64,000 nucleotides of DNA, taken from contig NZ_CP109485.1 of NCBI RefSeq assembly GCF_035918235.1, forward strand, positions 682,001-746,000, in the 5' to 3' direction. The notes below the pieces were generated by a model. That model made no database searches and was not told the DNA's origin. It saw only the letters and a list, made by a program, of their open reading frames with translations. Position 1 is the first letter of the stretch. Each line of letters starts with the position of its first letter. Positions 48,741 through 54,199 of the stretch are shown here, one piece after another. The position numbers and the translations under genes are program-made. Origin of the DNA: Streptomyces sp. NBC_01445. GTDB lineage: Bacteria; Actinomycetota; Actinomycetes; Streptomycetales; Streptomycetaceae.

Positions 48741-49535
48741 GTGCACCTGGATCTCTCGGGCCGGACCGCTCTGGTGACGGGCTCCACGCAAGGCATCGGA
48801 GCCGCGATCGCGACCGGGCTCGCACGCGCCGGCGCGCGGGTCGGAGTCAACGGACGCGACCAGGGCAGGGTGGAGGCGGCCGTCGAGCAGCTCAAAGCCG
48901 GCGTGCCGGACGGCGACTTCGTTCCGGTCGCCGCCGATGTCGGTTCCGAGGAGGGCGCTCGACGCGCCTGGGAAACGCTGCCTGACGTGGACATCCTCAT
49001 CAACAATCTCGGCATCTTCGACGCGAAGAACCCCTTGGACATCACGGACGACGAATGGCGCCGCTACTTCGAGGTGAACGTGCTGGCCGCCGTCCGGCTC
49101 ACGCGGCTGTATCTGCCGGGGATGACCGAACGCGGCCGGGGGCGCGTCCAGTACATCGCGAGCGACTCCGCGGTGGTGATCCCCGCCGAGATGATTCACT
49201 ACGGCATGTCGAAGACCGCTCTGCTCGCGGTCAGCCGCGGCTTCGCCAAGCACGCCGCGGGAACCGGCGTCACCGTGAACTGCGTCATCGCGGGCCCTAC
49301 TCACACCGGTGGCGTCGAGGACTTCGTGTACAAACTCGTCGACCGTGACCTGCCTTGGGACGAGGCGCAGCGAGTCTTCATGCGCGAGTACCGCCCGCAG
49401 TCGCTGTTGCAGCGCCTGATCGAACCCGAGGAGATCGCCAACATGGTGGTGTACCTGAGCTCCGACCTGGCGTCCGCGACCACGGGCGGCGCGCTGCGGG
49501 TCGACGGCGGATACATCGACGCCATCCTCCCGTGA
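48741..49535 (+). CDS. Short-chain dehydrogenase/reductase
   Basis: The GTG at 48741 (GTAAGGGAACAAGAC upstream) gives 264 residues. The classical SDR motifs are TGSTQGIG (nucleotide binding, near residue 14), NNLG, the catalytic Ser of IASDSAVV, and Y-x3-K (YGMSK). It ends in a typical RVDGGYI. The substrate is unknown. It converges with the P450 gene and is not obviously part of the peptide locus. Confidence 0.92.
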   Translation: MHLDLSGRTALVTGSTQGIGAAIATGLARAGARVGVNGRDQGRVEAAVEQLKAGVPDGDFVPVAADVGSEEGARRAWETLPDVDILINNLGIFDAKNPLDITDDEWRRYFEVNVLAAVRLTRLYLPGMTERGRGRVQYIASDSAVVIPAEMIHYGMSKTALLAVSRGFAKHAAGTGVTVNCVIAGPTHTGGVEDFVYKLVDRDLPWDEAQRVFMREYRPQSLLQRLIEPEEIANMVVYLSSDLASATTGGALRVDGGYIDAILP

Positions 49536-49657: not shown

Positions 49658-50710
49658 TCAGACTGTTCGCGCCTTCATCAAACGTACTTCCTCGACCCCC
49701 AGCAGGCCGAGCAGCGGAACCCTGCCGGTGCGCTGCCCGGGATCAACGACGAGCCCTGAGCTGCGGATCCGGTCCAGCAGCAGTTCGGCGAGCGGCATCA
49801 CCATGTGCCGTCCCCAGCAGCGCTCTGAGGCATGCCCGAAGGGCAGATAGCCCGGCGTGGCATCGGGGTCGAGTTCGTCCCAGCGCTCGGGCCGGAACAC
49901 GGGCGCGTCCTCCCACCGGGCCGGGTCGCGGTGCGAGAGCAGGGGAAGCAGCAGGACATCGTCATCGTCCCGGATCCGGCTGTCGATCGCGGGGTACTCC
50001 GCGGAGGCGTTGCGGAGGATGTTCCACGAGGGCGGCAGAAGTCGCAGGGCCTCGTAAACGATGTTGCGGTTCGACGTGCTGTCGTCGAACGGGGAGCCGA
50101 GCCACAGCGCGTTCGCGACGAGCGTCGAGACCGTGAAACACACCGGTGCGGCCGCTCGCCGGTAGACACCCATCGCGTACCTGCGGTCCTGGTAGCCGAC
50201 GGCTTCGGCCGCCCGCCCCGCGAGACCGGTGAGGTGGGCGCCGGGGCGCGGCCAGCCGGGCAGCGCGGCGCCTGCGGCGATCACGGACCAGGTCAGCTTG
50301 GGCGTCAGTTCGAGGTTACGGCTCATCAATATTCGCAGACGGAGAGGGTCTTGGCCAAGGATGAGGTCCCTCAGGAAGAGGTGTCCGGTGAGAGGCCAAG
50401 GACCCGACAGGTCGACGTCGGGCGGCAAGGGGCGCTTCAGTGCCTCGCGGACGTCGTCGCCTGTCGTCCGGGTGACCGACGAGGCTTCGCCTCGCGAGAT
50501 CGAGCGGCCGTGCAGCGGCTTGAACGTCGGCCGCTCGGTCTCCGTCGCCCGGCGCGCGGCCAGGATCCGGTCGGCGACGTCGTATCCGGCCACTCCGACG
50601 GTGTCGCTCTCGAGCCGGAAGACGTCGTGGCCCAGGTGATCGTGGAGGAGGGCTGTGAGTCGCGGGGCGAGCACGGTACGGCGCGTGCGCGGCGCGGAGG
50701 TGAGCGACAC
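49658..50710 (-). CDS. Cytochrome P450 of atropopeptide (tryptorubin-like) type
   Basis: The GTG at 50710 with GGAGA 4 nt upstream gives 350 residues, short for a P450 (usually about 400). E-x-x-R is YEALR (Glu220, Arg223), the PERF-like segment is FRPERWDE, and the haem-binding loop is FGHASERCWGRHM with Cys298. I do not see a standard AGxxT I-helix motif. It follows a 26-codon peptide gene whose C-terminus is AWYLWY. In tryptorubin-type loci the single P450 forms several C-C and C-N links between Trp and Tyr of such a hexapeptide, so that role is inferred. Confidence 0.9.
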   Translation of the reverse strand: MSLTSAPRTRRTVLAPRLTALLHDHLGHDVFRLESDTVGVAGYDVADRILAARRATETERPTFKPLHGRSISRGEASSVTRTTGDDVREALKRPLPPDVDLSGPWPLTGHLFLRDLILGQDPLRLRILMSRNLELTPKLTWSVIAAGAALPGWPRPGAHLTGLAGRAAEAVGYQDRRYAMGVYRRAAAPVCFTVSTLVANALWLGSPFDDSTSNRNIVYEALRLLPPSWNILRNASAEYPAIDSRIRDDDDVLLLPLLSHRDPARWEDAPVFRPERWDELDPDATPGYLPFGHASERCWGRHMVMPLAELLLDRIRSSGLVVDPGQRTGRVPLLGLLGVEEVRLMKARTV

Positions 50711-50739
50711 GGGGTCTCCGGTGGCGGTGGGTGGCGGAA

Positions 50740-50798
50740 CCCCCGCTGTACGGCAGCCGGCGTCGGGCGCATTGCTCGCTGCCACCGAACAGCGGGGG
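50740..50798 (-). other. Stem-loop between the precursor and P450 genes
   Basis: CCCCCGCTGT (50740-50749) and ACAGCGGGGG (50789-50798) form a 10-bp stem, with inner arms GGCAG/CTGCC (50752-50756 and 50779-50783). Lying in the 107-nt spacer, it could be a partial terminator or RNA stabiliser that keeps precursor mRNA in excess over enzyme mRNA. Confidence 0.65.
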
Positions 50799-50817
50799 CG
50801 GGTGGAGGCGTGCCGGA

Positions 50818-50898
50818 TCAGTACCAGAGGTACCAGGCGCTCGCCTTCAGGGACTTTCGGGCCGCGGCCTTGTTGCGGATAGCGAAGAGAAGCTTCAT
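50818..50898 (-). CDS. Atropopeptide-type RiPP precursor peptide (core AWYLWY)
   Basis: The ATG at 50898 is preceded by GAGAGGGGG seven nt upstream. The 26-residue product begins MKLLFAIRNK, has an Ala/Arg/Lys stretch with KSLKAS just before the core, and ends AWYLWY at the TGA. A six-residue C-terminal core of this composition is the signature of tryptorubin A (core AWYIWY) and relatives, made from tiny precursors by a neighbouring P450. Here Leu replaces Ile at core position 4. The leader is basic and helical and would be removed after cross-linking. The gene is far below usual ORF-calling limits. Confidence 0.93.
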   Translation of the reverse strand: MKLLFAIRNKAAARKSLKASAWYLWY

Positions 50899-51393
50899 CA
50901 CTGCACCCCCTCTCAGGGCGGACGGAAGACACGCGACGGGTGCCGGGGTGAGCCGGTGAAGATCGCATGCCGGTGGCGCGGTGAACCTTCCCTGCCGTGA
51001 TCAACGGCCAATCCATCAATTCACCGAAGAGCGTTTCGCATATCCACTTTCAGACCTTTCATTTCCCTCCGAGGACAGCGCTCTGCGTGAACCGGGTGCG
51101 GTCTCGAAGGGTCGCCGGGTTCGCTTCATGCCCTGGTCGCGGCCCTGCGGGTGAGACCCGGAAAGGGGACGGTGCAAAGCGCCGGGTTGTGGAAGGCGAC
51201 GTTCCCACCGCGGCCAGTTTGGCCGGATGGGCAGCCCTCGCCGCCGAGCAGGCAGCGCCGTGACCTGCGTGCGAAGATGGGTGCCGGGTCATTCCAAGGC
51301 ATCCCTGACGGCGTTGGGGCGCCGTAAAGGGGAAGTCACCCGGCGCCGCCACTGCCCTCTTGCCGATCCCGTCGACGGGCCGGGAGGCTCTCC
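50899..51393. other. Divergent intergenic region upstream of the peptide locus
   Basis: About 495 bp separate the precursor gene from the DUF5996 gene. An AT-richer section (51000-51070, with CAATTCACCG and TTTCATTTCC) is the best candidate for the minus-strand promoter of the peptide operon. I see no further conserved gene. Confidence 0.5.
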
Positions 51394-52347
51394 ATGAGCG
51401 AACGACGTACCACGTGGCCGGAGCTGGTCTACGAGGATCTGGCGCCGATGGTCGGCTACGTCAACCGGCTGGTGCAGGTCGGAGGCAAGTACACCCTGGA
51501 CGAGCCCTTCGAGGCCGGCTGGGGAAACATCGTTCTCGATGTCACTTCCCGTGGGCTCCGGACGCCGACCCACCGGCGGCAGGGAGTGACCTTCGAGGTG
51601 CACTACCGGCTCCTCGACGGTGACGTGGTCATCGAATCCGACCGGGGCTCGGTGACGGTACCCCTGCCCAACGGGTCCCTCGCCGCCTTCTACACGTCGT
51701 TCTGCGACGCCGCTGCCGAGCTCGGTGTGCGCCCACCGCGCACGTCATTGATCTGCGAGATCCCGGGTGCCCCGCGAAAGTTCGAGGACGATCAGATCGA
51801 ACGTAGCTGGGACGGGGACGCGGCTCGGCTGATGTCGACGGCCTTCAACCTTGCGGCCGGCGGGCTCGAAACGTGGCAGGCGCCCTTCCAGGGGCATCGC
51901 CCGCGGGTCGGTGTGATGTGGGGCGGTTTCGATCTGTCCGCCACGCGTTACCGGGCGCATCGAGCCACTCCGGAGGCTGACCGTCCGGCGTTCATGCAGA
52001 ACGCCGCGCGCGACGAGTACGTGTCGGTCGGGTTCACGTTCGGGGACGCCAAGTCGCCCAACGCCGGTATGTACGCGTACATCTGGCCCCAGCCGGACGG
52101 TCTCGAAGGCCGGTCCTGGGGTGTCGACGGCGCGGCCTGGAGTGCCGATGCGGGGCTGGCCCTGCTGCCATGGACCACGCTCAGGGAGATGGCCGATCCG
52201 CACCAGGCCATCGTGGCCTTCGGCGACGCCGTCTACGACGCGGCCGTGGAAACGGCGGGCTGGCCGGCCGACCTGATCGGACCCCGCTGCAACGGCTGGC
52301 GCATGAGCACGACACCACCAGCAGCCGACTGCGGCCGGGACCACTGA
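51394..52347 (+). CDS. DUF5996 family protein
   Basis: The 317-residue protein starts at an ATG with GGGAGGCTCTCC upstream. Blocks typical of DUF5996 are WPELVYEDLAPMVGYVNRLVQVGGKYTLDEPFEAGWGNIVLDV, VTFEVHYRLLDG, GVMWGGFDLSATRY and a C-terminal AYIWPQPDG...LLPWTTLREM...DAVYDAAVETAGWP. The family is predicted to be a cytoplasmic enzyme-like protein of unknown activity. It is divergent from the peptide locus. Confidence 0.85.
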   Translation: MSERRTTWPELVYEDLAPMVGYVNRLVQVGGKYTLDEPFEAGWGNIVLDVTSRGLRTPTHRRQGVTFEVHYRLLDGDVVIESDRGSVTVPLPNGSLAAFYTSFCDAAAELGVRPPRTSLICEIPGAPRKFEDDQIERSWDGDAARLMSTAFNLAAGGLETWQAPFQGHRPRVGVMWGGFDLSATRYRAHRATPEADRPAFMQNAARDEYVSVGFTFGDAKSPNAGMYAYIWPQPDGLEGRSWGVDGAAWSADAGLALLPWTTLREMADPHQAIVAFGDAVYDAAVETAGWPADLIGPRCNGWRMSTTPPAADCGRDH

Positions 52348-53557: not shown

Positions 53558-54199
53558 TCAGCTGCCCCTGCGCATCAGCAGACGCCCCTGGCGGAACCGT
53601 TCGCCCTCGCGAGGCTCGCGCAGCATCCGGCCCACCTCGGTGAACCCGGCCTTGGCGGCCATCTTCGCCAGGTCGTCGATCGGCCACCGGTAAGCCGTCA
53701 CCACCTTGTGGTCGAACTCCGTGACCGGATCGTCCCCCGACTCGAAGAAGGCGAGCAAGAGGTGGCCGCCGGGCGTGAGTACACGGCGGAACTCGTCGAA
53801 GTACGAGGGCACGTCCTCCGGTGGGGTGTGGATGACCGAGTACCAGGACACGATGCCGTTCAGCGATCCGTCGGCCAGGCTCAGGGCGTCCATGGAGCCG
53901 ACCTCGAACCGGAGGTCCGGGTAGGTCTCGCGGGCCAGATCGATCATCGCCGGCGACAGGTCGATGCCGAAGACATCGAGGCCGAGGTTCCGCAGGTGCG
54001 CCGTCACTCGGCCCGGGCCGCAGCCCAGCTCGGCCACGGGCCCGCCATCGTTCGCCTGCGCGAGTTCGGCGAACGCGGCGAGCACCGCGCGGTCCAGCGG
54101 CTGTGTGTCCAGCTCGTTGCGGACGAGTTCGGCGTAGAGGGCGGCCACGGCGTCGTAGGCGTCCGCTGTCGCATTGTGGTGGGAGGGAGTCTCAGTCAC
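53558..54199 (-). CDS. SAM-dependent methyltransferase
   Basis: The 213-residue class I methyltransferase has motif I VAELGCGPGRVTAHL (near residue 56), motif II FGIDLSPAMIDLARETYP, motif III-like GSMDALSLADGSLNGIVSWYSVIHTPP and post-motif LTPGGHLLLAFFESGDD. The substrate is unknown. It converges with the PhnB-like gene, with no dedicated partner nearby. Confidence 0.9.
   Translation of the reverse strand: MTETPSHHNATADAYDAVAALYAELVRNELDTQPLDRAVLAAFAELAQANDGGPVAELGCGPGRVTAHLRNLGLDVFGIDLSPAMIDLARETYPDLRFEVGSMDALSLADGSLNGIVSWYSVIHTPPEDVPSYFDEFRRVLTPGGHLLLAFFESGDDPVTEFDHKVVTAYRWPIDDLAKMAAKAGFTEVGRMLREPREGERFRQGRLLMRRGS

Follow-up and report, generated by a model that had tools for sequence, protein, structure and literature searches.

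Atropopeptides are described in PMC11450843 as peptides whose side chains are cross-linked by a P450, and are defined by this P450, by a KSLK leader motif, expected at about residues 17-20 of the precursor, and by a Trp at core position 2. Bitryptides are the subfamily with an xWxxWx core plus KSLK (PMC11450843). Two described systems lie close to the locus analysed here, namely the jum cluster of Streptomyces jumonjinensis, which leads to amyxirubin B, and lauA together with lauB1 of Streptomyces laurentii, which lead to tryptorubin B (PMC11450843).

The window is a stretch of 64,000 nucleotides from Streptomyces sp. NBC_01445, carrying on its minus strand a short precursor gene (50818..50898, 26 codons plus stop) followed by a cytochrome P450 gene on the same strand. 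A preliminary description had read this pair as a two-gene, tryptorubin-type atropopeptide locus with a new core that would give an isobaric tryptorubin analogue. The atropopeptide type, the two genes and the isobaric relation are borne out by the present analysis, whereas the novelty of the core is not.

Translation of positions 50898-50818 gives MKLLFAIRNKAAARKSLKASAWYLWY followed by a stop, with the KSLK leader and, as had been claimed, the C-terminal core AWYLWY. The ribosome binding site proposed for this gene is likely the purine-rich stretch GAGAGGGGG (50914-50906, minus strand) upstream of the ATG; a purine-rich stretch before the precursor start is kept across 26 aligned upstream regions. 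An in-frame GTG is located at 50901, one codon 5' of the precursor ATG. On the Streptomyces clavuligerus plasmid the precursor (L114, 2807 region) starts with GTG, one codon 5' of the position of the ATG in the window, and given this start GTG 50901 could be an alternative start.

The precursor matches the NCBIfam model NF038372 (tryptorubin family) over its whole length with 51.2 bits, the curated cut-off being 33, and this is the single match to the model in the 11.47-Mb genome of the window. Among 392 genomes of the same genus (the genome of the window included) 44 gave a match, 42 of them above the cut-off, and 0 of 14 control genomes were matched. The preliminary description had tied its reading to a small open reading frame with this kind of C-terminus in related loci; a frame ending in W-Y-x-W-Y or a close variant was found upstream of the P450 in 76 of 79 related loci, where 75 were placed in one locus scan and L038 separately. 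Short open reading frames are common, and other frames are also open at this place, so a chance small frame next to an ordinary P450 has to be weighed. Against it stand the match to the curated model, the empty control genomes and the recurrence of the pair in these 76 loci with mostly unrelated flanks. This recurrence refutes the chance explanation, to which we assign practically no probability, and the small frame is read as an atropopeptide precursor.

Two precursor genes were seen in L083 (4484-4746), with the cores AWEGYISY and SWPHWY, and the genome G358 has two widely separated precursor matches.

KSLK occupies residues 15-18 of the precursor, two earlier than published, Trp is found at position 2 of AWYLWY, and the core A-W-Y-L-W-Y together with KSLK agrees with the bitryptide pattern. 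The class-defining P450 falls inside the clade, beside those of characterised species, in a tree of 84 rows. Judged by sequence, the locus is in agreement with all published family criteria that can be tested in this way. A biarylitide identity was rejected, as biarylitides are described with a five-residue precursor and the precursor here has 26 amino acids.

The P450 gene (49658..50710, stop included, minus strand) was assigned a GTG start at 50710, with GGAG at 50719-50716, and encodes 350 amino acids. A mechanically called frame of 453 amino acids from TTG 51019 would overlap the precursor; GTG 50710 is preferred because the closest public protein, 95% identical, also has 350 amino acids and a start at the matching residue. 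The ExxR and FGxxxxxCxG motifs named in the preliminary description are present in the translation as EALR and FGHASERCWG, and the haem loop pattern occurs in 80 of the 81 P450 frames read. In the Xanthomonas loci L050 and L081 the P450 frames, read from the match start, stop early at 105 and 190 amino acids, respectively, and L081 matched the later half of the P450 query only. These two copies may be broken or partial.

In the tree, whose reference proteins were presumptively identified by species name, the P450 belongs to a clade of 19 rows (support 100/96) that includes the S. jumonjinensis and S. clavuligerus P450s. The placement outside the atropopeptide P450s that the preliminary description had named as speaking against its reading was therefore not what was observed. 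Against NF050147, the model of the aminopyruvatide P450 ApyO, the enzyme scores 62.7 bits, where the equivalog needs at least 525. A structure model built with 57 more diverse alignment rows has a P450 fold (pLDDT 89.6); with 26 close sequences as input the pLDDT had been as low as 62.4. Sequence searches against solved structures returned distant P450s, matched over the C-terminal part, and the label of a RiPP cross-linking P450 is absent among the matches listed (the best 60 of 143 and of 201).

The usual acid-alcohol motif of the P450 I helix is (A/G)GxDT. In the structure model the predicted I helix (residues 173-205) has no acid-alcohol pair of this kind, and all 57 aligned relatives keep its residues P189, C191 and T193.

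The genes around the pair, nine in number, were looked for in 80 loci, of which most extend about 5 kb to either side and some less far. The flanks are kept in 2 of the 80, with all nine genes in L005 and eight in L006; elsewhere single weak matches to the methyltransferase, the SDR or the glyoxalase were seen (L019, L041, L052, L065). The conserved unit is therefore the pair of precursor and P450. Pfam gave no obvious RiPP gene among the nine neighbours, a general methyltransferase and an SDR being present, in line with the minimal organisation first proposed. Both the methyltransferase (53558-54199) and the SDR (48741-49535) were considered as tailoring genes and rejected, each being kept beside the pair in L005 and L006 only. 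The DUF5996 gene just upstream (51394-52347) is kept in L005 and was undetected in L006 despite the other eight neighbours there.

With high probability, this is a minimal two-gene atropopeptide locus, with a P450 whose predicted role is to link the Trp and Tyr side chains within the core.

The claim of a new core did not hold. Among 76 relatives with a readable core, AWYIWY was found in 23, AWYLWY in 20, AWYFWY in 12, SWYIWY in 5, AWYGWI in 5, AWYHWY in 4 and VWYLWY in 2, together with five singletons. AWYLWY is thus the second commonest core, and loci carrying it were found in Streptomyces, Pseudonocardiaceae, Luteibacter, Burkholderia and Xanthomonas. A degenerate core DNA pattern matched 11 of 395 relatives, with Phe encoded at 2 of the 11 sites, and by this pattern AWYLWY is carried by 9 of the 395 (the genome of the window included). 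Within the 19-row P450 clade, 13 rows have AWYLWY and four have AWYIWY (L007, L017, L019, L021) at two separate places; the other two rows are S. clavuligerus with AWYIWW and P0046, which is outside the core count. Since AWYIWY and AWYLWY are interspersed, the change at core position 4 has no counterpart in a division of the enzymes, and this Ile/Leu drift under close P450s suits core engineering.

A literature text search found no paper with the string AWYLWY and likewise none with AWYIWY, so that such a search cannot decide whether AWYLWY is already published; WYLWY returned unrelated papers only, judged by their titles. The locus adds to the carriers of an atropopeptide core that is already common. 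It is well supported as a further member of a described RiPP family, mostly ordinary in its make-up.

For biosynthesis, the KSLK leader would dock the precursor on the P450, and this enzyme would install Trp-Trp and Trp-Tyr bridges like those of tryptorubin-type peptides. Cleavage of the leader, and perhaps of the N-terminal Ala, would fall to a protease encoded elsewhere. We predict as product a Leu isomer of tryptorubin A/B, its mass unchanged by Leu for Ile, with a predicted [M+H]+ of 897.393 for the hexapeptide and 826.356 for the pentapeptide after loss of four hydrogens. These masses are arithmetic, and the four-hydrogen loss is modelled on varsorubin B1 (PMC11450843).

An atropopeptide locus of this kind might also give a product with fewer or different bridges, for example one Trp-Trp bond in a trimmed WYLW tetrapeptide ([M+H]+ 665.308). 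The same P450 family makes the single-bridge products scabrirubin and varsorubin B2a (PMC11450843), and ScaB forms one C-N bridge on a WYIWY core (PMC12352619), so membership in the family does not determine the bridge pattern. However, the P450 of the window shares its clade with the S. jumonjinensis enzyme, from the cluster that led to amyxirubin B, and distant members are much further from it than this enzyme and that of S. laurentii. A caution given in PMC11450843, that product structure is poorly predicted by P450 phylogeny, weakens the case against fewer bridges. On balance we consider a product with fewer or different bridges unlikely, and prefer the Leu isomer with both kinds of bridge.

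Amyxirubin as the product was considered for the close S. jumonjinensis P450 and set aside on the core AWYIWW of S. clavuligerus, which we take to be the clavorubin producer and whose core stands in here for that of amyxirubin. Amyxirubins are equated with clavorubins in PMC11450843.

The gap between the precursor stop and the P450 start (50711..50817, minus strand) contains a predicted hairpin, with outer stem arms at 50799-50789 and 50749-50739. It was evaluated by folding, by a stem score and by a test on 77 loci (76 relatives and the window), with z calculated against dinucleotide shuffles. Gap folds had a median z of -2.88, with 51 of 77 loci below -2. Stretches of the same length upstream of the precursor had a median of -0.34 (10 of 77 below -2), and those inside the P450 a median of -0.08 (1 of 77). 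Paired Wilcoxon tests of the gap against the two controls gave p values of 1e-11 and 2e-13, respectively, which overstate independence as the loci are related. An earlier gap run with 100 shuffles gave a median z of -2.84, with 53 of 77 loci below -2.

The gap of the window has a weak z of -1.3, and its stem score is 40 against a maximum of 31 in 25 control windows. On this score the gap ranks above each of 25 control windows from the same locus in 41 of 77 loci; of the 1925 control windows in total, 157 score at least as high as the observed stem. L063 and L067 have a gap without a hairpin, and 26 of 77 loci fall short of a z of -2.

Stem sequences vary between branches. In the 11 of 77 loci with alignable stems, a set that the window lies outside of, 7 of 19 stem pairs are altered on both sides with pairing kept, a number reached by 0 of 500 shuffles. 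Sliding one side against the other lowers pairing in these stems from 95.7% to at most 55.2%, and an automatic fold of the same alignment gives 5 compensatory pairs out of 22.

In the gaps of L008-L016, L019 and L021 the stem arms contain GACATCGTTGTC, a near-palindrome, in this or a closely similar form, and a protein could also bind there.

No T-run terminator was found in the gap. The gap sequence has no second full-length copy in the genome, where eight partial matches of 17-29 bases occur, and Rfam gave two opposite-strand matches far under the gathering scores, which were taken as chance. The words hairpin, terminator, stem-loop and intergenic are absent from the main text of PMC11450843 and of PMC12352619.

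The gap hairpin likely sets the ratio of precursor to enzyme. Being GC-rich, it would probably lower P450 expression relative to the precursor, either by partial termination or by protection of the short precursor message. When an additional ribosome binding site was placed in front of the P450 gene of a sister system, the yield rose 100-fold (PMC11450843), which is in line with P450 supply being limiting.

Alternatively, the hairpin could act as a full terminator, or could be neutral and arise simply from a high G+C content, the P450 being expressed from its own promoter or by simple read-through. G+C-rich DNA folds readily, L063 and L067 do without a hairpin and the z of the window itself is weak, all of which fits this explanation. 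Yet the shuffles preserve dinucleotides and so allow for composition, the two control stretches of matching length in each locus, one upstream and one within the P450, lack the signal, compensatory changes occur in one subset, and a simple consensus scan found no sigma-70-like promoter between the two genes. We hold the terminator or by-product to be possible at somewhat below even chances. That atropopeptide loci share an unannotated third part, a hairpin kept in structure and not in sequence that sets a high ratio of precursor to enzyme, so that precursor, hairpin and P450 together would make up the minimal cluster, we put at even chances. If true, the ratio-setting hairpin would offer a simple way to adjust yield in a family investigated through expression in laboratory Streptomyces.

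Upstream of the precursor, at a distance of 94 bases from its start, is a conserved bipartite block with the pattern GGGAAG-N22-GATCTTC (50958..50992, minus strand), a pattern defined only once the alignment had been inspected. Counted on both strands, it has 19 occurrences in total in the 77 loci; 14 of the 77, all in the 19-row clade, have it at -91 to -102 relative to the precursor start. The block is possibly a promoter or operator.

The nearest relatives of the locus are L005 (Streptomyces sp. CB01635) and L006 (Streptomyces sp. NBC_01446), which have the core AWYLWY, P450s 97% and 95% identical, respectively, and the same flanking genes. L006 differs from the window in having AN in place of AS before the core, and in the DUF5996 neighbour.

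The jum cluster also has two genes, and its P450, with 79% identity, is placed in that 19-row clade as well; this comparison is by P450, and the sister locus of S. clavuligerus has the core AWYIWW. For the lau cluster (laurentirubin B and tryptorubin B), an S. laurentii P450 is 76% identical and the core is WYIWY; a second P450 adds an ether bridge there (PMC11450843), and the locus in the window has none. Like the present locus, the tryptorubin A/B clusters are of about 1.2 kb with a 26-amino-acid precursor and one P450 (PMC9749553), and share the KSLK leader motif and the WYxWY core (PMC11450843, PMC9749553). The tryptorubin A core, AWYIWY, is taken from the preliminary description and matches WYIWY of tryptorubin B (PMC11450843). 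The core in the window has Leu where that of tryptorubin has Ile.
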